DNA from: a bacterium
GTDB taxonomy: Bacteria > JAJVIF01
Reading direction: 5' to 3'
Assembly: GCA_022072165.1 (NCBI GenBank)
Contig: JAJVIF010000002.1
Location: 430,063-494,062, forward strand
DNA: 64,000 bases
The translations under genes and the position numbers were made by a program. This document shows positions 41,140 through 53,992 of the stretch, piece after piece (the stretch's first letter is position 1; every line of letters begins with the position of its first letter). The notes under the pieces are model-generated. The model did not search any database. It was not told where the DNA came from and was given only the letters and a program-made list of their open reading frames with translations.

Positions 41140-42726
41140 ATGGGGAGCCACGACATCGCCATCAGGCCGCACCGAAGTCGCCCTCTTTTGGGGGCGCTTT
41201 GCATCCTTTGGGGGCTGCTCCTCACCTCGGCTCCCATGCCGGTTGCAGCGTCCGGACTCTTCGAGATGGAGTACCCCGAAGGGGCGGAAGTCCGGATCGA
41301 GACTGCCCCGCCGGTCGATTTCGATGTCTCCCTGGCCCCCTGGAAAGAGGTCGCAGGGGTCCCTCAGGTCCGCTACGCCCAGTATCAGGAATTCATGCTC
41401 ATCGCTTTTCGCGGCGCGGGACGCGAGGCGGTCACGACTTCGGAGTTAAGCGAACCACCGCGGCATCTGTTTGACTGGCCCGGACGCTCCCTGAAGCTGT
41501 CCAAGCCGGTCGCGATCTCCTTCCCCAATCACAATCTCATCCAGGAACTGCGGGTCTCCAGCGCCAAGGATGGCACGCTGAAACTGGTCCTGGAGTCGCT
41601 GGTCCCCCTCCCGATGCAGGAGCTGGGGATGCTGCCCGATGACTGGCGCATTTTCTGGATCGGTACCAGCTTTGAGATCCGGATGCAGCGGACCATCGCC
41701 CCCCATGTGGTCTATCTCAAGCGGGTCATGGCGGATGCGAGCGGCCAACGACGGGTCCATCTAGTCCGGGCAAATCTGGCGACCAGCGGCTTTGAGCCGC
41801 ATCTGAGCTATCCGGCGGATGTCGGCCACAAGCGCGCTTCAGTCGGGACGCTGATGAAGTCCATCAACGGCTATGTCGCCATCAATGGGGGCTACTTCGA
41901 TGGCGCAGGCCGGTCGCAGGGGCTGCTGGTGCGCGATGGTTACCTGAACAACAAGCCGATCATGCTCCGCCCCAGCTTCGCCATGAACCATGAGGGGATC
42001 ATGGCGATTGGCTATCTCCCCGTGATTGGAACCATCAGCGGGCTCCGGAGTGAAGTGAACTTCGAGCACATCAATGGACACTTCGATGGCAATAACATCG
42101 TGCTCTTGTCGCCCGGCCACCCGAGCCGTCTGGCAGATGAGACCCGCCTTGCGAACGCCTGGAAAGTGGTCATCGACAACGACATCGTGCGCCGGGTCGG
42201 CTTTGAGCCCCTCACCCAGGAAGAGCGCCAGGTCGCCCATGTCCTGCTGGTCCCTCCGACCCTTGCCTACTCCGCCAACTTTGCGCCGGGAGAGCAGATT
42301 CGAGCCCGGTATCAGGTCGGACGAACCGGGAGCAGCGCGATTGATCTCGCGCTGCAGGCCGGGCCGATGCTGGTCCGGAATGGCGCTCCTGATGTCTCGA
42401 CCCAGGGCGATTTCCCGGCGGACATCCGGCGGGGACGGGCTCCCCGCAGTGCACTGGGGCTGTCCCAAGATGGCCGGACATTGTTCCTGATGGCGGTCGA
42501 TGGCCGCTCGAAGTCCGCGGCCGGGGCGACACTGACTGAACTCGCCCACTATCTCGTGGAAGCTGGTGCCTGGACCGCGATGAATCTCGATGGGGGGTCC
42601 TCCACGCAAATGGTGGTTGCCGGGGATCTGGTCACCCAGAATCCTGCCGGGGCCAAGCCGGTGGCTAATGCCCTGGTTCTGGTGGACCGTCACGGACGCT
42701 ATGGTCGACAGGAGACCTTCTTCTGA
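41140..42726 (+). CDS. Secreted phosphodiester glycosidase (NAGPA)-domain protein
   Basis: This 528-residue protein has a signal peptide (LCILWGLLLTSAPMPVAAS). Residues about 45-185 form a beta-rich region with an AMIN-like look. The C-terminal NAGPA/DUF2233 domain has YVAINGGYFDGAGRSQGLLV and MNLDGGSSTQMVV, both family hallmarks. Members cleave phosphodiester-linked sugars and are often linked to cell-wall metabolism, which fits the murA neighbour. GGAGGGAG precedes the ATG. Confidence 0.88.
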   Translation: MGSHDIAIRPHRSRPLLGALCILWGLLLTSAPMPVAASGLFEMEYPEGAEVRIETAPPVDFDVSLAPWKEVAGVPQVRYAQYQEFMLIAFRGAGREAVTTSELSEPPRHLFDWPGRSLKLSKPVAISFPNHNLIQELRVSSAKDGTLKLVLESLVPLPMQELGMLPDDWRIFWIGTSFEIRMQRTIAPHVVYLKRVMADASGQRRVHLVRANLATSGFEPHLSYPADVGHKRASVGTLMKSINGYVAINGGYFDGAGRSQGLLVRDGYLNNKPIMLRPSFAMNHEGIMAIGYLPVIGTISGLRSEVNFEHINGHFDGNNIVLLSPGHPSRLADETRLANAWKVVIDNDIVRRVGFEPLTQEERQVAHVLLVPPTLAYSANFAPGEQIRARYQVGRTGSSAIDLALQAGPMLVRNGAPDVSTQGDFPADIRRGRAPRSALGLSQDGRTLFLMAVDGRSKSAAGATLTELAHYLVEAGAWTAMNLDGGSSTQMVVAGDLVTQNPAGAKPVANALVLVDRHGRYGRQETFF

Positions 42727-43635: not shown

Positions 43636-43674
43636 AGGCAAAAGGCCGGGGAAGCCTGTGGTGGCCTCCCCGGC
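43636..43674 (-). terminator. Terminator of the first giant lipoprotein gene
   Basis: On the minus strand, GCCGGGGAGGCC pairs with GGCTTCCCCGGC (one G-U) and is followed by CTTTTGCCTTT. Confidence 0.8.
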
Positions 43675-43709: not shown

Positions 43710-46700
43710 CTAGGACCCGAAGGTGAAGATCGAACTGGTGTCGTCGGCGACAAACCGGACGTTGTCGACCCAGAACCCGAAGGGGTCGTTGGGATCATCC
43801 TGCTGCGAGTCGGTGAAGGTGCCATCGAACTCGAAGCGGAGGCGGAGCCCGCTGGGGTTGCCAGCCAAACCGGTCACCGGGAAGGTGACATTGAGCCAGG
43901 TTTGGCCCGCCAGCGTGGCGTTCTGAGTCCACACGGGCGTCCCCCAGGTCACGCCGTTGTCCGTCGAGAAGTACATCCGGACCTGCACACCTAAGTCAGC
44001 CCCATCTTCGACGGGGCCATCATAGGTCCCGAAGTAGTTAGAGTCATCGACGTTCAGATAGGCGTTGAAGATGAGATTGACCTGACCGGAGCAGATCGGC
44101 GGAATGAGTACCCGGGGACTGACGATGTTGTACAGCGGGTCGCCCCCCCAGTCATCCTCGAAGCTGCAGAAGGAACTGTCGCTGGTGACTCCGATGGCAG
44201 AGCCGCTGATCGCGCCACCACTGTCAGTCTGGACGGCCAGCAGGGTGCCAGAGTTGGCGGGAGCGCAGTCGCTCCAGCCAAACTGACCCCAGCCGAAGTT
44301 CAGGTCGGTGTTCGGCAGCGCCGGCGTGAAGAGGTCGCCTTCGAGCCAGCCCTGGGCTGTCGTGGTGAAGTCGAAGGTGAGAGTGCGGGGCTGGCAGGGG
44401 AACGTCGGGGGATTGGTCCCGAAGGCCGATGCGGCACCAGCAGAGATCTCCACCTGGTCGAGGGTCATCGCGACACTGTTGCTGCTGTTGTTGTACGGGG
44501 ACGGCAACGAGTAGGTCAGGTCCACCGTGTCCACAAACTCGTAGCGTAGCAGGATCGTCTCGCCACCCAGCGCGTCAGGCAGTGCGACTGTGGTGTTCGT
44601 CAGAATCTGCTCCGTATCATTCGCGTTCTGGGTCCAGACCGGAGTCCCCCAGGTGGTCCCGAGGTCGGTCGACACATAGAGCCGCATCTGCGCCCCGGAC
44701 CGGGCCCAGAGGATCATGTTGAACCGGACCTGCAGGCTGTTCGGCGTACAGATAGTCGGCACGTTGATGAACGGGCTGATGATGTTGTAGTTCGCCTGCC
44801 GACCGTAGTCATACAGGAAGGAACAACCGCTGCCATCTCCGCCGCTGGTCCAGTACTCGCCGCTGATCGCACCGGCGGAGCGGGACTCGGTTTCAGTCCC
44901 ATTGCAGCCCCACTCAAAGTGTCCCCAGTTGGACTGATCGCCATTGGGCAGTCCGGGACCATATGCGAAGTCCGTGCCCTTGACCCACCCCTGGGCGTTG
45001 GCATCGAAATTAAACGCCAGTGACTGGGAAGCGCAGGTCGAGGGACCCAGGTCGTAGTTGAGGTCGACCGTAATCGGCGGATTGATGCCGTCGGAGTACT
45101 GAATCCGGGTAGTCCGGTTCAGGGTGGTCACGCCAGGGTTGTTCTGCGCCGACGACACATGCAGGGTGCTCGGGGCCGGCGGCGGATCGATGTTGGTGAC
45201 ATCTGGTGTAAAGACACCGGTGTAGTGGTAATCGATGGCGTACAGCACCGTGTCGCCATCGGGGTCATTCTCCGCATCGAGCTGGTAGGTCAGTTGCCCA
45301 CCCGACGGAATCGAGTTGGAAAGGAGGGTGATGGTCGCGGTGGGCGGATCATTGGGACCCGCTGGATTCACCGTGTAATCAAGCAGGACCACGGTGGGAC
45401 TCGCGATGCTGGCCGCATCGTAGTACCGCACCCGGGCCTGACGTGCCTGCGGGGTGGCTCCACCATTCACTGGTGCAATGCCGCTGTAGAGCGGGACGGC
45501 AGGCGGAGGTACACCGGCAGGGTCGATACCGGTCGCCTCGAAGGTGCCATCGTCATCGACATCGATGTCGTAGAGGACGGGATCACCGTCATCATCGTCT
45601 TCCGCGGTCACCTCGAAGTCGAGTGCGCCGCCGGAATTCACGGTCGGATTCGGACCTCCCACCAGTGCGACTGTCGCCGTCGGTGGGGTGTTGCTGCTGC
45701 CTCCCAGGGAGACCCGGAAGCGCTGGTAGGTCACCACTGGCAGCGAGTTCGCTGCCTGCGGGGCGAGATTCGGATCGAGGATGAACTCCCAGGCGGAGCG
45801 GTCGATGTTGTTCTCGGGATCGACCACTTTCACCATCCCGATGACATCTCCGGCACTCTGCCCCGACGAGGCACTGTTCTGCACCAGTCCCTCGTAGTAG
45901 AGATCATCAAACGCCATCCCGGAGTCGGCGGCGGCATCGCCCCCAAAGGCGGAGTCATCGTCGACCAGGTTGAAGACTGCCGGTGCGGAGGTGACACCCG
46001 GGATATCCACGGTGACCGTCGGGACACCTTCAGTACCGGCGGGGATGGTCTTGGGATCCGGATCGTCCCGCAGGTCGGTGCGGGAGGAGACGGTCGCCCG
46101 GGCATCCGCATCCCGGACATAGAGCCGAAGGGTCGAGGTGCTCAGCGGATTGTTGGGAAGCAGGCCCCCGGTTTCGCCCAGGGTCCGGACCCGCTCTGCA
46201 TCGATCGCCCCGTAGGGCATCCGGTAGACAAAGTTCGCGACGTTCTCGGGATTCGAGGGGAGGCGATTCGCCCGCTTTTGCGCCGCGGTCGTGCCACCGC
46301 GGGAATCGATGTACTTGGCCAGCACCGCGGTGTTGAAGCTGAAAGATGACTGGCTCTGCAGCGCATTGGTGTCGAGGCGCAGGACGTTGGAGGTACTTTG
46401 TCCCTGCATCAGCATCCCGAAGCCGGTCCACCCATTGTTGCCGTTCGGACCGGCGATGTTGTCGCCCTGCCAACCGGAACTCGGCTTGTAGTTGCCAGCC
46501 CCGTTCGAGCCGTTACCGATACCCACGCGATTTCCGGCCGTCCCTGCGCCTTCATCAACGATGAGCTTATAGGGGAAGGTGTTCGCGGTGAGCCCCAGCC
46601 CCGGCAGCAGGGGGCCGGGCTTGAAGTAGCCATCCGCCTGGACCACCAGCGACGTATTCGCGATCGCCTCGCCACCGAAGTAGGTATAAGGCGCGGGAGA

Positions 46701-47171
46701 ACCGGCAGGGAGGTCCATCAGGAAGACCAGCCGGGCCGCGATCCCCAGGTCAGCGCGATTCGCGGCCGTGGCGGGACCAGCCAGATTGGTCGGTGCAGCG
46801 AAGGGATGGGTAAAGGTGTATTCGATGTCGATCGTCGAGGCGGTCCGGGTGATGCCGGTAACACGCAACGAGTCAGGACGCAGGAAGTTCCCCACGGAGA
46901 GGAAGTAGATGTCGTCATTGGCGCTGGCGGTACGCCAGGGCGTGACAGTCGCTGACGGAGCATCACCAAGGGTCAGGTCGACGTGATACCCCCCCAGGGC
47001 TGCGATGCCAAGCATGCCCGGCATGGTGTCGCCGCCAGGCAGCGCGCTTTGTTCGAAGTCAAAGGCTCCCCCGGCAGTGCCGGCAGGATTGGCTGGGGTC
47101 TTGCTGCCGCTGGAGCAGCTGAGCAGACCAGCCAGCAGGGGCAATGCCAGCCCCCAGAAAAGTGTGCGCAT
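43710..47171 (-). CDS. Giant lipoprotein 1 with PKD-like pair and two C-terminal jelly-roll-like repeats
   Basis: The start at 47171 (behind GGGGAGG) gives 1153 residues with a lipoprotein signal ending LLSC; the frame runs further upstream without support. Layout: an N-terminal domain of about residues 22-490 (ANTFPYKLIVDEGAGTAGNR, GGTTAAQKRANRLPSNPENV, VKVVDPENNIDRSAWEF); two PKD/Ig-like modules at about 495-705 (NTPPTATVAL, NDPPTATITL); two repeats of ~220 residues (WGHFEWGC, CSFLYDYG, ISPFINVPTIC, YVSTDLGTTWGTPVWTQNA). The C-terminal repeats resemble MAM or immune-inhibitor-A-like beta-sandwiches. Function is unknown; the protein is probably surface-exposed. Confidence 0.85.
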   Translation of the reverse strand: MRTLFWGLALPLLAGLLSCSSGSKTPANPAGTAGGAFDFEQSALPGGDTMPGMLGIAALGGYHVDLTLGDAPSATVTPWRTASANDDIYFLSVGNFLRPDSLRVTGITRTASTIDIEYTFTHPFAAPTNLAGPATAANRADLGIAARLVFLMDLPAGSPAPYTYFGGEAIANTSLVVQADGYFKPGPLLPGLGLTANTFPYKLIVDEGAGTAGNRVGIGNGSNGAGNYKPSSGWQGDNIAGPNGNNGWTGFGMLMQGQSTSNVLRLDTNALQSQSSFSFNTAVLAKYIDSRGGTTAAQKRANRLPSNPENVANFVYRMPYGAIDAERVRTLGETGGLLPNNPLSTSTLRLYVRDADARATVSSRTDLRDDPDPKTIPAGTEGVPTVTVDIPGVTSAPAVFNLVDDDSAFGGDAAADSGMAFDDLYYEGLVQNSASSGQSAGDVIGMVKVVDPENNIDRSAWEFILDPNLAPQAANSLPVVTYQRFRVSLGGSSNTPPTATVALVGGPNPTVNSGGALDFEVTAEDDDDGDPVLYDIDVDDDGTFEATGIDPAGVPPPAVPLYSGIAPVNGGATPQARQARVRYYDAASIASPTVVLLDYTVNPAGPNDPPTATITLLSNSIPSGGQLTYQLDAENDPDGDTVLYAIDYHYTGVFTPDVTNIDPPPAPSTLHVSSAQNNPGVTTLNRTTRIQYSDGINPPITVDLNYDLGPSTCASQSLAFNFDANAQGWVKGTDFAYGPGLPNGDQSNWGHFEWGCNGTETESRSAGAISGEYWTSGGDGSGCSFLYDYGRQANYNIISPFINVPTICTPNSLQVRFNMILWARSGAQMRLYVSTDLGTTWGTPVWTQNANDTEQILTNTTVALPDALGGETILLRYEFVDTVDLTYSLPSPYNNSSNSVAMTLDQVEISAGAASAFGTNPPTFPCQPRTLTFDFTTTAQGWLEGDLFTPALPNTDLNFGWGQFGWSDCAPANSGTLLAVQTDSGGAISGSAIGVTSDSSFCSFEDDWGGDPLYNIVSPRVLIPPICSGQVNLIFNAYLNVDDSNYFGTYDGPVEDGADLGVQVRMYFSTDNGVTWGTPVWTQNATLAGQTWLNVTFPVTGLAGNPSGLRLRFEFDGTFTDSQQDDPNDPFGFWVDNVRFVADDTSSIFTFGS

Positions 47172-47473
47172 AGCTGCGACCTCCCCTTTCCGGTTGCCCG
47201 AAAAGGATGGATATGCACGAGCGACCGCACGGGCGACGCAGGACTGACGAAAGTGAAAGCGTCGGTACCAGGGCTTGCCCCAATGGGCAGCCCGGTGGTA
47301 GCGGGTTCGCACGCGACGAAAAAGTGTGTGAGACCGGTGCCTGCCGTCAGGGCCTAATCTGACAGCAGGTGTCATATGGTATCACGGCATTGCGGTGCAA
47401 CTGGCCAAACAAAAGCGCCGCTCCCATGGGAGCGGCGCGCTGGTTCTGTCAGAAATGCAGGTACCGGGTGCAG
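47172..47473. other. Leader region of giant lipoprotein 1 and terminator of lipoprotein 2
   Basis: It contains the terminator at 47407-47438 and probably the promoter of lipoprotein 1 (a minus-strand TACCAT at about 47376-47381). That would leave a leader of about 200 bases with GGGCAAGCCC-type inverted repeats. No known riboswitch was recognised. Confidence 0.4.
47407..47438 (-). terminator. Terminator of the second giant lipoprotein gene
   Basis: A perfect palindrome GCGCCGCTCCCA/TGGGAGCGGCGC is followed on the minus strand by TTTTGTTT. Confidence 0.92.
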
Positions 47474-50400
47474 TTACTGAAGAATGTAGATGCTGTTGGT
47501 ATCTGTGCTCTGCAACCGGACGTTGTCGACATAGAAGCCGAACGGATCGGTCGAGGCCGCACTCTGCGTACCCGTCCGGGATCCCTCGAACTGGAAACGG
47601 ATCCGGAGCCCATTGGCGCTGCCCGCATAGGAGGTGACGTCCAGCGACTGATTCAGCCAGGTCTGCCCGGCCTGAGTCGAGGCGTTCGACCAGACTGGCG
47701 TTCCCCAGGTGACGCCGTTGTCGCCTGAGACATACATGCGGACCTGGATGGTGTCGTCCCAGCCATCAGCGTTTGGATCTGAGCCGTTGGTGTCATCGAC
47801 GTTTAGGTAGGCGTTCCAGAGGAGCGTCACCGTGCCGCCCGAGCAATTCGCCGGGATCAGAATCTGTGGACTCACCGTGTTCAGGTTCGGGGTGGCACCA
47901 TAGTCGTAGAGGAACGAACAGCCGGTCCCGGTGCCGTCAGAGGTCGCCGTGAGGGACGAGCCGCTGATGGCTCCGCCACTGGCCGCTTCTACTGCCTGGA
48001 AGACCGTATTCGTGGGGCAGGTCGTCCAGCGGAGGCCGGACCAGTTCAGGGCATCGGTGTTCGGCAAAGCTGGCGAGAACGCCTGCCCGCCGATCCAGCC
48101 GCTCGACCCGCCATCGAAGTTCATGGTCAGGGTGCGGGGCTGACAGGGGAAGGTGGGGGGGTTGCTGTTAAAGGTCCCGACAGACCCCGCGCTGATGGCG
48201 ATGTTGTCGACCGTGAGGCCCACCGGGTCGAGCTGGGTGCTGCCACAAGAGGCCGACCCATTGAAGCGCCACGTCGTGGCGCTCACGCTGTCCTCGAACT
48301 GGAGGCGAAGGAAGATCGACTCTCCGGCCAGCGCATCCGGCAGATTCACGGTGACATTCCCCAGCACCTGGGAGGTGCCGTTGGCTGCCTGCGTCCAGAC
48401 CGCGCTCCCCCAGGTCGCCCCAAGATCGGTAGAGACATAGAGGCGAGCAACCGCGCCTGGCGCGGCGTTCATGAAGGCGTTGAAGCTGACCTGCAACGAC
48501 CCCGGCACGCAGATGGCCGGGACGTTAATGAACGGGCTGATCATGTTGTAGTTCGCCGTGATGGCATAGTCGCACAGCCAGCTGCAGGCGGAGTTGTCGC
48601 CATCATCACCACTTGTCCAGTAGCCGTTGGAGATCCCTGCTCCCTCGGCGGACGTGACACCACAGTACCCGGCACCGCCATAGGCGTTATGCCGCAGATG
48701 CCCCCAGTTGAGGCTGTCGGTGTTGGGCAGCGCCGGGCCATAGGCAAACGCGCTCCCTTCGATCCAGCCCTGCGAGCCGGTGTCGAAGTTCCAGCTCAGG
48801 CTGGTGGTACCACAGGTGGCGGGGCCGACGGTGTAATTCAGGTCGATGTTGATGGCCGGATTAATGCCATCGGAATACTGCACCCGGGCAGTGCGATTCA
48901 CCGGAGTTGCGCCGGGGTTGGTCTGCGCCGGGGTGGTGTGCAGAGGGGTGGGGGGCGGACCGGGATCCAGGCCGGTCACGTCCGGCGTGAAGATGCCGCC
49001 AAAGTCGTAGTCGATCGCGTAGGTGACCGGGTCACCATCCGGATCGTTCTCCGCATCCAGGTTGAATGTCAGGGTGCTGCCGGAAGCAATGGAGTTGTTC
49101 GCCAGCGACACTGAGGCGGTCGGGGGGGTGTTGGCTCCGACCGGCGCGACCTGGTAGTCGAGCAGGATGATGCTGGGGGTCGCGATGCTGCCAGCATCGT
49201 AGTACCGCACCCGCGCCTGATAGCTGTCATTGGTCGCCCCGCCATTGGCAGGCACGACATCCGTATGCAGCAGCACGTTCGGCGGCGGGACGCCTGCCGG
49301 ATCGAGACCGATGACATCAAAGGTGCCGTCATCCGTGATGTCGATGTCATACAACACGGGGTTGTTTTCGACATCGAACTCTGCCGAAACTTCGAAGACG
49401 ATGTTGCCGCTGGAAGGCAGGAGCGGATTCGGGCCGCCCTGGAGCACGACTGTCGCTGTCGGCGGGTTATTGCCGCCGGTGCCACCAATCTCCACATTCG
49501 CCCGCTGGTAGGTCACCAGTTCTGGCTTGTTGGAGGTCAGGGGAGTCAGATTGGGATCCAGCGCGAACTCATAGGCGCTGCGGTCGAGGTTGTTCTCCGG
49601 GTCGGTCACTTTCAGCAGGCCATAGACCGTGCCGTTGACCTGCCCGCTGGTCCCGGCGGTATTGAAGACGGTGCCCTCGAAGAAGAGAGGATCCCGCGCG
49701 ATCCCGGAGTCAGCCGCAGCATCGCCACCGTAGGCGGAGTCGTCATCCACCAGGTTCAGGACCACCGGAGTAGTCGCGACTCCCGGGATGTCGATCTGCA
49801 CAGTCGGAATCCCTTCGCTGCCAGGCGGGACCGTGGTGGGATCGGGATCATCCGCCAGGTCCGGCCGGGTGGAGGTCTGCGCCCGGGCATCAAAGTCGCG
49901 GACATGGAAGCGGACTACCGTGGAGGAAGCGGGTGCATTGGCGACCAGCCCCCCGGACTCACCCAGGGGCCGGATGAGCGAGACATCGAGTGCCCCATAG
50001 GGCATGCGATAAACGAACTTGGTGACATCGTAAGGATTTGCGGGAAGGCGATTCGCCCGCTTTTGCGCGGCAGTCGTCCCGCCACGGGAGTCCAGGTACT
50101 TGGCCACAATCGCCGTGTTGAAGGAGAAGGGATTGCCGGTCAGTTCCGACAGATTGAGGGAGACGACATTCTCGGCGCGCTGGCCCTGCATGAGGACGTC
50201 ATAGCCGGTCCAGCCGTTGTTTTGCCCAGCAAAACCGAGGGTGCCGAGCTGCCAGCCCCCTTCGGTCGGCCGATAGTTGCCAACCCCGGTGCCACCGTTG
50301 CCAATGCCCACGCGGTTGCCTTCCGCGCCCGCCGCCTCATCAACGACCAGCTTGTAGGGGAAGGTGTTCGCGGTGAGCCCCCCTGTATTCGTCAGCAGGC

Positions 50401-50956
50401 CCCGAGGCTGATAGAAACCATCCGCGTTGGCGAGAATGCGGGTATTGGCGATTGCCTCGCCACCAAAGTAGGTGTAGGAGCCGACCGGTCCGCCGGTGGG
50501 GATGTCCATCAGGAAGAGGAGCCGGGCAGAAATCGCGAGGTCGGCGCGATTCGCAGCGGTCGCGGGGGCCGCCGGATTCGTGGGACCGTTAAAGGGATGC
50601 GACACCTCATACGCGATGTCCAGGGTCGTCGCGGTCCGTGTCACGCCCGTGATCCGCAGATTGCGGGGCTGGAAGAAATTGTTCACCGACAGGTGATAGA
50701 TGTCATCGGTGGCCGAGCCCGTGCGCCAGCCATCGACTGTCGCCTGACTGGCGACCGGATCGACCCGGAAGGTATAGCCGCCCAGGACCGAGGTCCCGGC
50801 CAGTCCGGGGAGCGCGTCGCCACCCGGCAACGCGGTCTGTGCAAGATCAATGGCCGCTCCGCCGGTAATCGGGGGAGTCGCCGGAGCTTTCCCTCCGCCG
50901 GCACAGCCGGCGGCGGTCAGCGCCAGGGCCACAAGGGCCCAGTGGGTCAGTCGCAT
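47474..50956 (-). CDS. Giant lipoprotein 2, paralog of giant lipoprotein 1
   Basis: The start at 50956 behind CAGGAGG gives 1160 residues with a signal ending LTAAGC. The layout matches paralog 1: an N-domain at about 20-490 (ANTFPYKLVVDEAAGAEGNR, GGTTAAQKRANRLPANPYDV, LKVTDPENNLDRSAYEF); two PKD-like modules at about 495-710 (NNPPTATVVL, NTPPTASVSL); C-terminal repeats at about 714-930 and 935-1160 (CSWLCDYAITANYNMISPFI, YVSTDLGATWGSAVWTQAAN). The conserved Cys pairs in the repeats suggest disulfides. Function is unknown. Confidence 0.85.
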   Translation of the reverse strand: MRLTHWALVALALTAAGCAGGGKAPATPPITGGAAIDLAQTALPGGDALPGLAGTSVLGGYTFRVDPVASQATVDGWRTGSATDDIYHLSVNNFFQPRNLRITGVTRTATTLDIAYEVSHPFNGPTNPAAPATAANRADLAISARLLFLMDIPTGGPVGSYTYFGGEAIANTRILANADGFYQPRGLLTNTGGLTANTFPYKLVVDEAAGAEGNRVGIGNGGTGVGNYRPTEGGWQLGTLGFAGQNNGWTGYDVLMQGQRAENVVSLNLSELTGNPFSFNTAIVAKYLDSRGGTTAAQKRANRLPANPYDVTKFVYRMPYGALDVSLIRPLGESGGLVANAPASSTVVRFHVRDFDARAQTSTRPDLADDPDPTTVPPGSEGIPTVQIDIPGVATTPVVLNLVDDDSAYGGDAAADSGIARDPLFFEGTVFNTAGTSGQVNGTVYGLLKVTDPENNLDRSAYEFALDPNLTPLTSNKPELVTYQRANVEIGGTGGNNPPTATVVLQGGPNPLLPSSGNIVFEVSAEFDVENNPVLYDIDITDDGTFDVIGLDPAGVPPPNVLLHTDVVPANGGATNDSYQARVRYYDAGSIATPSIILLDYQVAPVGANTPPTASVSLANNSIASGSTLTFNLDAENDPDGDPVTYAIDYDFGGIFTPDVTGLDPGPPPTPLHTTPAQTNPGATPVNRTARVQYSDGINPAINIDLNYTVGPATCGTTSLSWNFDTGSQGWIEGSAFAYGPALPNTDSLNWGHLRHNAYGGAGYCGVTSAEGAGISNGYWTSGDDGDNSACSWLCDYAITANYNMISPFINVPAICVPGSLQVSFNAFMNAAPGAVARLYVSTDLGATWGSAVWTQAANGTSQVLGNVTVNLPDALAGESIFLRLQFEDSVSATTWRFNGSASCGSTQLDPVGLTVDNIAISAGSVGTFNSNPPTFPCQPRTLTMNFDGGSSGWIGGQAFSPALPNTDALNWSGLRWTTCPTNTVFQAVEAASGGAISGSSLTATSDGTGTGCSFLYDYGATPNLNTVSPQILIPANCSGGTVTLLWNAYLNVDDTNGSDPNADGWDDTIQVRMYVSGDNGVTWGTPVWSNASTQAGQTWLNQSLDVTSYAGSANGLRIRFQFEGSRTGTQSAASTDPFGFYVDNVRLQSTDTNSIYILQ

Positions 50957-51217
50957 ACAAAGCCTCCTGTGCAATCTCAAGACGCATGCGAGAGCGAAGC
51001 GTCGGTGCACGATGAACGCCGCAGGTCGGTGCGAAAGTGGGACTGGCAAAAGAGTCCAGGATCTTCCGTACAGACACTCCCGGCAAACCCCCGTACTTCT
51101 CGGGGACCCTCAGGAGTCAGCAGGGCGAGTAACGAAGAGTGTGACGACCGAGGCTCCATGCCTACCGGAGCCGGTCACATGCAAGTGTATCACCCGATCC
51201 CGTGTGATTTCGCTGGC

Positions 51218-53992
51218 TTACGGGAGCAGCAGGAGGGTTTCGGACCCCGTGATTGCGACCCGCACCTGATCGATATAGCAGCCGAACGCCTGGGTTGGCG
51301 TGGGAGCTTGCCGCACGGAAGCTGCCGTCGTGACGAACTCAAATCGCGCCCGGACTCCCTGGGGAGACCCCTCGAAGTCCTCCAGGTAGACCTGCTGATT
51401 GATCGCCACGGTCCCACCGTTAGAGGAGTTCATCGACCAGACCGGGCTCCCCCAAGTCTGGCCGTTATCTCCGGAAAGATAGAGCCGTATGGTGGAGGGG
51501 ACCATCCCACCGACCGCGTTGGTGTTCAGATAGGCGTTCCAGCGGAAGGTCGATTCATCGACTTCGGAGCAGAGCGAGGGGATGAAGTACCGGGGACTCA
51601 CGATGTTGTAAACCGCATTGCCGCCAAAGTCATCCAGGTACTGGCAGCCAGTCCCCAAGCCACCATCAGTCTGGTCCTGGTCTGCACTGATATTGAGTGA
51701 GGGACCAGAGATCGCTCCAACTGCCGCTGCTAACACTGCACTGTAGGTTCCCAGGGGATCGGTGGCGGCATCACAGGCGGTCCAGCGGAAAGATCCGAGC
51801 CCCCCGAGTCCCTGACGGATCGTCGCCTGGTCATCGCCATTCGGCAGCCCGAAGAACTGCCCCCCCTGCCAACCTTCAGCCGACAGGTCAAAGCTCTGCG
51901 TGATGTTCTGCGCCAGGCAGGTGCCGAAGGGGGGGGTGTACCCCAGCTTGATCGGCTCATCGGAGTCCTGGAGCAGGCGGACATGGTCGATGGACAAGCC
52001 TGCATGTTCGCCCCCGGCGGTCTGGTAGGTGTCAGTCCCACCCTGGAAGCGGAACCAGAGGCGCAACGGTCCAGCCGCCAGGTCGGTGGAGAGCGACACC
52101 TCGACATCGGTCAGGACCTGGACACCCCCGTTCCCGGACCGCGTCCAGAGAGGCGTCCCAGGGTCACGATCACTGGAAGTCGCATAGAAACTGGCTGTGG
52201 CATCGCTGTCCGCTGCGAGCACCGCGTTGAACCGGACCCGCAACTCCCCCGGATCGCACATGTGCGGCAGCGTAATGAGCGGGCTGCGGAAGGTCGCATC
52301 GGCGTGGGGGCCATAGTCATCGGTGAAATCACACTCGGCGTTGTCCTGATCATCGCCGGTCGAGAGATAGGTCCCGCCCGCACTCAATGCCCCGGCGGCA
52401 ATGGCTTCGGTAGCGGCATTGGCACAGCCCTGCCGAAAATGCGACCAGTCGTACTGATCGGAATTCGTGCCCCAGGGTGCCCAGCCTTCGGCCCCATCAT
52501 CGAACGTGAAAGTCAGTGTCCGCAGAGCGCATCCAAATGGCGCATCCAGCGTGACCGGGGCGAACTGCCAGGTCACTGGCAGCAGACCACTGGCGACCGG
52601 TGTCAGGGTGCTGTCGAGCGGGAACTCATAGCTGGAGCGGTCAAGAGCTGCTTCTGGATCCCGGACTTCCACAAGGGCCCAGTAGGGCCCTTCCGACTGC
52701 CCCGGAGTCGCGGCGGAATTGAAAACGCTGCCGTTGAAATAGACCGGGTCCTCCGGCATCCCGCTGTCAGCCGCCACATCGCCGCCATAGGGGGTGTCAT
52801 CGTCGGTGAGTGTGAGTGTTGCCGGAGTCGCCGTGACCCCGGGGATATCGCAGCGGACAGTCGGCGCGCCCGCCGCACCTGCCATCACTGTCCCGGGATT
52901 GGGATCGCTTGCCAGGGTCGCCGAAGCGGTGGTGGGTGCCCGGAGGTCAAAATCAGTCACACGCACGTGCATGGTGACCGATGAGGAGGGGTTCTCCGCC
53001 TGCAACGTGCCCGTGGTTCCTAAGGGGACCACGCGCGACACATCCGGAGCTCCGTGCGGCATCCGGTAGACAAACTTCATGACATCAGCAGGCGAGACCG
53101 GGAGTCGATTCGCCCGCTTCTCAGTCGCGGTAGTCCCACCGCGGGGATCCAGATACTGCGCCAGGACTGCCACCTGGAGCGGAGCGACTCCTGGTGTTTC
53201 AAAAAGCGAGACCACCAGGTCCAGTGGCACGGTCACGGTCTGTCCCTGATGCAGGACGCCATAGCCGGTCCAGCCATTCCGGCTCGGACCAATGTTCGCC
53301 GCCTGCCACCCTCCACTGGCGGGGGCATAGTTCCCCTGCCCGACTCCTCCGCTGCTGATCCCGATGCGGTTGCCAGTTCCGCCGAACACTTCATCGACCG
53401 CCATCACGAAGGGGAATGTGTTGGCGCGACGTCCGGGAGCGGCGGGCACCAGTTGCCCGCTCTGGCAGTACCCATCGCTATTGGGGACCACCCCCGGTCG
53501 CGCGATCACGGATCCAAACCAGGTGTAGTCCGCGACGGAGGCACTTGCAGGGAGGTCTGCCAGCACCACCAGGCGCGGGACGATCCCCAAGTCGGCGCGA
53601 TTGCTGGCGTTGGCCGGACCACTGAGGTCAGTCGGTCCGGCAAAGGGGTGACGCAACTGCCAGCGTGTCGAGAGCGTGTCGGCAGTCCGGGCGATGTCGA
53701 TCAGGCGCAGACTCCCGCCGGTGAGGAACGAGTCGAGGGGGATCTGATAGCGGTCAGAGGTCGCGGTGCCATAACGCGCTTCCTCGACAGTTAGTGCTTG
53801 TGTCGTTGGGTCCCAGGCGAGGTCGTAGAGTCCCAGCAAAGCCGTTTCAGCAACGCGCTGCGGCATCGCATCCGGCGACTGCGCCCCGTGTGCTGAGGGG
53901 TCCAGCGCCTGGGGCGAGGAACCAGCGCAGCTGGTCAGCAGGAGCAGCAGTGAAGTTGCGGAAAGTGCAGCGAGCAGCCGGGGTCGGAGCAT
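51218..53992 (-). CDS. Giant lipoprotein 3, shorter paralog without PKD modules
   Basis: The start at 53992 behind GGAGGG gives 924 residues with a signal ending LLTSC. The N-domain is shared (GRRANTFPFVMAVDEVFGGT, GGTTATEKRANRLPVSPADV, VEVRDPEAALDRSSYEF). The two PKD-like modules are missing, and the two C-terminal repeats start at about residues 486 and 689 (WSHFRQGC, CDFTDDYG, and CQYLDDFGG, FIPSLCSE). It is the first gene of the array on the minus strand and ends 260 bases before paralog 2. Confidence 0.85.
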   Translation of the reverse strand: MLRPRLLAALSATSLLLLLTSCAGSSPQALDPSAHGAQSPDAMPQRVAETALLGLYDLAWDPTTQALTVEEARYGTATSDRYQIPLDSFLTGGSLRLIDIARTADTLSTRWQLRHPFAGPTDLSGPANASNRADLGIVPRLVVLADLPASASVADYTWFGSVIARPGVVPNSDGYCQSGQLVPAAPGRRANTFPFVMAVDEVFGGTGNRIGISSGGVGQGNYAPASGGWQAANIGPSRNGWTGYGVLHQGQTVTVPLDLVVSLFETPGVAPLQVAVLAQYLDPRGGTTATEKRANRLPVSPADVMKFVYRMPHGAPDVSRVVPLGTTGTLQAENPSSSVTMHVRVTDFDLRAPTTASATLASDPNPGTVMAGAAGAPTVRCDIPGVTATPATLTLTDDDTPYGGDVAADSGMPEDPVYFNGSVFNSAATPGQSEGPYWALVEVRDPEAALDRSSYEFPLDSTLTPVASGLLPVTWQFAPVTLDAPFGCALRTLTFTFDDGAEGWAPWGTNSDQYDWSHFRQGCANAATEAIAAGALSAGGTYLSTGDDQDNAECDFTDDYGPHADATFRSPLITLPHMCDPGELRVRFNAVLAADSDATASFYATSSDRDPGTPLWTRSGNGGVQVLTDVEVSLSTDLAAGPLRLWFRFQGGTDTYQTAGGEHAGLSIDHVRLLQDSDEPIKLGYTPPFGTCLAQNITQSFDLSAEGWQGGQFFGLPNGDDQATIRQGLGGLGSFRWTACDAATDPLGTYSAVLAAAVGAISGPSLNISADQDQTDGGLGTGCQYLDDFGGNAVYNIVSPRYFIPSLCSEVDESTFRWNAYLNTNAVGGMVPSTIRLYLSGDNGQTWGSPVWSMNSSNGGTVAINQQVYLEDFEGSPQGVRARFEFVTTAASVRQAPTPTQAFGCYIDQVRVAITGSETLLLLP

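Follow-up and report, generated by a model that had tools for sequence, protein, structure and literature searches.

An uncharacterised N-domain found in one bacterial phylum heads a large family of lipoproteins with varied C-terminal tails

Three neighbouring genes of the window (the whole 64,000-nucleotide stretch of DNA analysed here) belong to a genome-wide family in which one conserved N-domain stands behind a lipoprotein signal peptide and in front of dissimilar C-terminal tails. We consider it probable, with a rough probability of 0.62, that this N-domain serves its lineage as a presentation chassis on which lipoproteins carry exchangeable tails, diversified by recombination within the 5' half of the genes.

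Results

Positions 43710-53992 of the window hold three consecutive minus-strand ORFs of 1153, 1160 and 924 residues (g1, g2 and g3). All start at an ATG behind a Shine-Dalgarno-like sequence and encode a signal peptide with a lipobox, in agreement with the original prediction of three large lipoproteins. Behind its signal peptide and lipobox (LLSC), g1 (43710..47171) continues into the shared N-domain (45705..47138, matched by the family HMM), a PKD-like pair (45039..45704; PKD_4 at a sub-threshold E of 2e-4) with no counterpart in g3, and two Cys-containing repeats that are predicted to fold as jelly rolls (44418..45038 and 43725..44399, with repeat HMM scores of 256 and 248 bits). The same layout recurs in g2 (47474..50956, lipobox TAAGC), where the HMM places the N-domain at 49487..50929, PKD_4 marks the pair at 48818..49486 (E 5e-4, again sub-threshold) and the repeats lie at 48167..48817 and 47486..48148. 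The shorter g3 (51218..53992, lipobox LTSC) is built without the PKD pair of about 210 residues; its first repeat (51947..52534) abuts the end of the N-domain (52547..53950, family HMM), and the second, also found by the repeat HMM, lies at 51230..51922. These sub-threshold PKD_4 matches were the only Pfam result for the window proteins, and NCBIfam gave no match to them; PKD-like modules in the two longer proteins and none in the third is what had been proposed. The two clear terminators claimed earlier were also recovered on the minus strand, one after g1 (43645..43674, a 12-bp stem with a T-rich tail) and one after g2 (47415..47438, a 10-bp stem with a T run). A plus-strand ORF of 528 residues with a signal peptide (41140-42726) adjoins the array and encodes what we take to be a phosphodiester glycosidase-like (NAGPA-like) protein.

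At the protein level, identity between g1 and g2 is 58% along the full length; g3 matches them at 48% across the N-domain (residues 23-482) and at 33-34% across the C-part. With family HMM matches in all three proteins the common N-domain is real, and the two C-terminal Cys repeats proposed for each protein can be aligned across eight proteins of the genome, in which the repeat HMM finds twelve copies. The array had been explained by recent duplication with domain loss or gain. Loss or gain of the PKD pair stands; recency is unsupported for the trio, since the synonymous divergence of g1 and g2 is near saturation (dS about 1.1 in the N-domain and about 1.3 in the C-part). The g1/g2 pair is an old duplication without decoupling of N-domain and tail. 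Nor does the tandem array of three hold as a unit, as the trio makes up three of about 137 such loci genome-wide; it is a local cluster sharing one tail type, two jelly rolls of the CBM/cleaved-adhesin kind.

Structure prediction, as suggested at the outset, was applied to this repeat. The second repeat of g2, of about 200 residues, models as a jelly roll (AlphaFold2 pLDDT 84.7, pTM 0.88), and its top PDB match in Foldseek is the Kgp K3 cleaved-adhesin domain (E 3.6e-6), followed by CBM4, Eph receptor ligand-binding domains, CBM22, CBM61, CBM16 and reelin. Target-normalised TM-scores reach 0.60 at 10-15% identity, and weak profile matches fall on F5/8C, Reelin, InhA-MAM and Cleaved_Adhesin. 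On the model and these matches, the repeat belongs by fold with the beta-sandwich jelly rolls of the CBM and cleaved-adhesin type. For this tail type, the gingipain and CBM4/22/61/16 fold matches lend weight to the early guess of an adhesin or a carbohydrate-binding role, and, judging from the modelled fold, the trio tails most likely serve to bind glycans or other surfaces.

The N-domain spans about 440-470 residues across the family and about 465 in the window trio. Its AlphaFold2 model, computed for g2 on a 72-member alignment, is confident (pLDDT 87.3, pTM 0.87) and nearly all beta with a few short helices. Foldseek returned nothing at E<=1e-3 against the PDB, where none of the matches listed covers the whole domain (query-normalised TM-scores no higher than 0.18); the search of BFVD gave nothing significant either. 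Sequence searches of the PDB, Pfam, NCBIfam and PHROGs were empty or at noise level, which bears out the view that the domain has no named family. Across 124 N-domains, His108 and Asp342 are invariant, and the near-invariant positions include P109, F110, R125, D127, L128, R291, P293 and Y304. The two invariant residues and the HPF...NRxDL region may mark a site of binding. With dN/dS values of 0.08-0.28 in the informative pairs, the N-domain is under purifying selection.

We then counted the family in its source genome (3.26 Mb in 4 contigs, 99% complete). A search with g2 alone gave 87 matches, and N-domain profiles built from 72 and then 124 members gave 141 domain-spanning matches; with the parts of split genes joined, these amount to about 137 loci. 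This census combines profile searches with fetched loci, and it may be slightly low because 150 of 176 candidates were scored. Among the 129 full or near-full members that were fetched, the median ORF is 966 codons long and the total length is 372 kb; with five further loci added, the family takes up about 385 kb, or 11.8% of the genome. Some members stand alone at scattered positions, others form tandem runs with at most nine genes, and a few consist of the N-domain only (about 460-560 residues). A strict rule of ATG start plus lipobox holds for 109 of the 129 members, and all three window genes have the signal peptide and lipobox Cys expected of a bacterial lipoprotein.

Several loci deserve mention on their own account. 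C2:381231-384215, C2:420314-421517 and C1:1684874-1688037 are broken by stops or frame splits and are apparent pseudogenes. The genes at C1:1622303-1625245 and 1627718-1630525 match at 99.9% identity along 2.8 kb, so that a unit of about 5.4 kb was duplicated very recently. At C3:44144-48297, an insert of about 40 residues splits the N-domain of two adjacent members close to HMM position 115.

The family is present in each of the four available phylum genomes, with 141, 108, 111 and 93 matches; for the three relatives these figures count matches and not genes, because their assemblies are drafts. The order of lipobox, N-domain and dissimilar tail was seen in sampled loci of all three. One relative, GenBank JAGGVT01 (MAG 'bacterium isolate AUK107', bin PB_MBMC_061), may come from the Auka vent, as its PB_MBMC bin naming is shared with PMC9213671, whose main text does not contain this bin. 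A broader profile run over 385 genomes gave no match that held up in the 381 outside the phylum, and a narrower one over 289 genomes was positive in the four phylum genomes only. A phylum-restricted family, which the original observation had named as support for its claim, is what we find: within the genomes sampled, the family is restricted to this phylum. Two kinds of candidate kin were rejected. A partial match in one outside genome (E=2e-6) falls in generic Ig-like repeats and has no counterpart in the rest of the 17 genomes sampled from that phylum. Loci from other organisms that a second scan picked up align only from query residue ~364 onwards, essentially the PKD part. A single-protein scan of genome contigs found no relative, and a search of a plasmid collection gave no family match.

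BLAST clustering of 116 tails gave 16 multi-member types and 28 singletons, that is, at least 44 clusters. Propeller and stalk modules recognised by Pfam and NCBIfam comprise PKD, Ig, SBBP, LipL53-type, Kelch, BNR, PQQ, FG-GAP, TolB-like PD40 and NHL, and 17 of 71 scanned tails match the SBBP LipL53 model NF047494 of NCBIfam. Other tails match F5/8C, cellulose-binding-protein, reprolysin- and M57-type peptidase, GH43 and metallo-beta-lactamase models, two match choice-of-anchor J (NCBIfam), and redox tails match cytochrome c and di-haem peroxidase; the individual annotations are to be read as leads, because several rest on one member each. Among the scanned tails, one matches the di-haem peroxidase CCP_MauG at 1.6e-49 and one matches cytochrome c. 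Cytochrome-like tails occur at C1:905006-907882 and C1:1196350-1198068.

The histories of N-domain and tail are decoupled in the family. In the neighbouring genes C1:1694601 and C1:1698503, a common tract of 1516 nt with 98.5% identity runs from about 60 nt upstream of the ATG to 16 nt beyond the N-domain, with four differences within the N-domain itself (N-half dS 0.008); their tails fall in different BLAST clusters and their tail divergence is saturated. Between C1:1016325 and C1:1022273, identity is 99.9% for 2225 nt, after which the C-part dS is 0.74, and at C2:200867/203647 the N-domains are 93% identical and the tails about 40%. Among the 18 pairs whose N-domains are at least 70% identical, 10 have tails that do not align over half their length. 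Duplication with uniform divergence would not yield near-identical N-halves joined to unrelated tails, whereas conversion or recombination within the 5' half would.

When the six largest tail types are placed on a FastTree tree of the N-domains, 19 changes are required, where the minimum is 5 and shuffling gives a mean of 40.7, so that tails are inherited yet repeatedly changed. For the SBBP-type tails alone 12 changes are needed, at least six of them forced by well-supported branches. Since tail types cluster on the tree, swapping is occasional. A tract scan found no near-identical tails on different N-domains, and conversion of the 5' half therefore fits at least as well as mobility of the tails. 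Repeats flanking the genes on the 3' side, considered as integron-like recombination sites, turned out to be intrinsic terminators.

An intrinsic-terminator-like hairpin lies within about 130 nt downstream of 73 of 127 genes, where shuffled sequences predict 0.4, and -10-like hexamers (TATACT, TATAAT) are enriched upstream of members, a simple k-mer count that is merely suggestive. From these signals, many members appear to be separate transcription units, with a promoter-like region and a terminator of their own.

As to location, the residue at +2 after the lipobox Cys is mostly S, Q, A, N or G and never Asp, and Omp85 is present. LolA, the usual carrier of outer-membrane lipoproteins, was not detected (PF03548) in any of the four phylum genomes, where the controls gave their matches. 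Of the two features expected of Lol-sorted outer-membrane lipoproteins, the lack of Asp at +2 and the presence of LolA, the family thus shows the first, and the genomes give no sign of the second. The proteins may lie at the outer membrane or the surface; targeting there would then need a divergent LolA or another route, or else many members remain at the inner membrane. A search for SlipAM/Slam gave no match, nor did any of its controls.

Discussion

Mechanistically, a lipid anchor would hold the all-beta N-domain at a membrane, presumably the outer one, and the N-domain would in turn hold an exchangeable functional tail away from it. Conversion or crossover inside the conserved 5' half would join near-identical N-halves to unrelated tails, and new combinations of N-domain and tail would arise because this conserved half is a large homology patch. 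The tails may well act in ligand binding, and their swapping may be adaptive. A wider picture, which we offer tentatively, is that of a phylum whose cell surface is built around one private anchor domain, with enzymes, redox proteins and binding modules grafted onto it, possibly delivered by a route other than LolA, and with 5'-half recombination reshuffling the pairs.

Other readings of the family were considered. One is a polymer-capture lipoproteome, scavenging carbohydrates or proteins in the manner of SusD/SusE-type lipoproteins, in which each tail binds or degrades a different substrate and the N-domain docks to a common transporter or scaffold. CBM-like jelly rolls and F5/8 type C, GH43, peptidase, BNR and cellulose-binding-protein matches among the tails are what it would require, and a docking surface would show the purifying selection seen in the N-domain; however, many of the genes appear to be monocistronic and to end in a terminator of their own, the ORFs flanking the window array include no shared transporter neighbour, and most tails lack an enzymatic match, which makes this reading unlikely. 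Rather less probable still is a recognition or decoy repertoire resembling surface antigens, acting in kin discrimination, aggregation or evasion of predators and phages, in which 5'-half conversion keeps the anchors uniform while the tails diversify. The many copies, the recombination between N-halves and the adhesin-like and beta-propeller tails agree with it, and own promoter-like regions and terminators would permit individual expression. Yet the tails are mostly recognisable ancient domains and not hypervariable versions of one, neither phase variation nor silent cassettes were found, and peroxidase and cytochrome tails are ill-suited to such a role.

Plain lineage-specific duplication, with each tail acquired once and then changed by divergence alone, with no significant recombination, we regard as the most doubtful of these readings, and it is already disfavoured. 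The tandem runs and the clustering of tail types on the N-tree would agree with it, and the window trio by itself fits it, but it does not account for an adjacent pair with nearly unchanged N-halves and saturated tails, or for the repeated, partly forced changes of the SBBP-type tail. A presentation chassis diversified by 5'-half recombination remains our preferred reading.

Among known systems, the closest in organisation is the PE/PPE family of Mycobacterium, which counts 169 genes in M. tuberculosis and about 7-10% of the genome (PMC12209268). Both families join a conserved N-part to a variable C-part at very high copy number (about 137 loci here), take a similar share of the genome and are lineage-restricted, and recombination and gene conversion are reported for PE/PPE. 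However, the PE/PPE N-domains are alpha-helical, of about 100-180 residues, and carry a secretion signal, whereas the domain described here has about 440-470 residues, is modelled as all-beta, lies behind a lipoprotein signal peptide and has no sequence match to them. Known folded modules form the tails here, whereas those of PE/PPE are mainly glycine-rich or tandem repeats. Because the PE/PPE N-domains are short and helical, the present family is not PE/PPE despite the similar organisation.

The SBBP beta-propeller lipoproteins LipL53 of Leptospira (NF047494) resemble some members in propeller tail and lipoprotein nature only: there the propeller is the whole ectodomain, whereas here a 440-residue N-domain separates it from the lipobox. 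Likewise, the fold that the window Cys repeat shares with the gingipain cleaved adhesin, choice-of-anchor J, reelin-type jelly rolls and CBM4 concerns a tail module and not the family-defining domain. Large paralogous sets with diverse binding domains are also formed by the SusD/SusE-type lipoproteins of Bacteroidota, but the N-domain described here is unrelated to any Pfam family.

Taken together, one uncharacterised domain, missing from the libraries searched, takes up about one eighth of a genome and occurs in all the genomes available for the phylum. This raises the question of how more than 100 large lipoproteins are delivered with Omp85 but no detectable LolA. The N-domain is a candidate new fold and would serve as a marker of the phylum, and the family offers a natural experiment, set outside the pathogens, in how modular surface proteins evolve, on a scale like that of PE/PPE.
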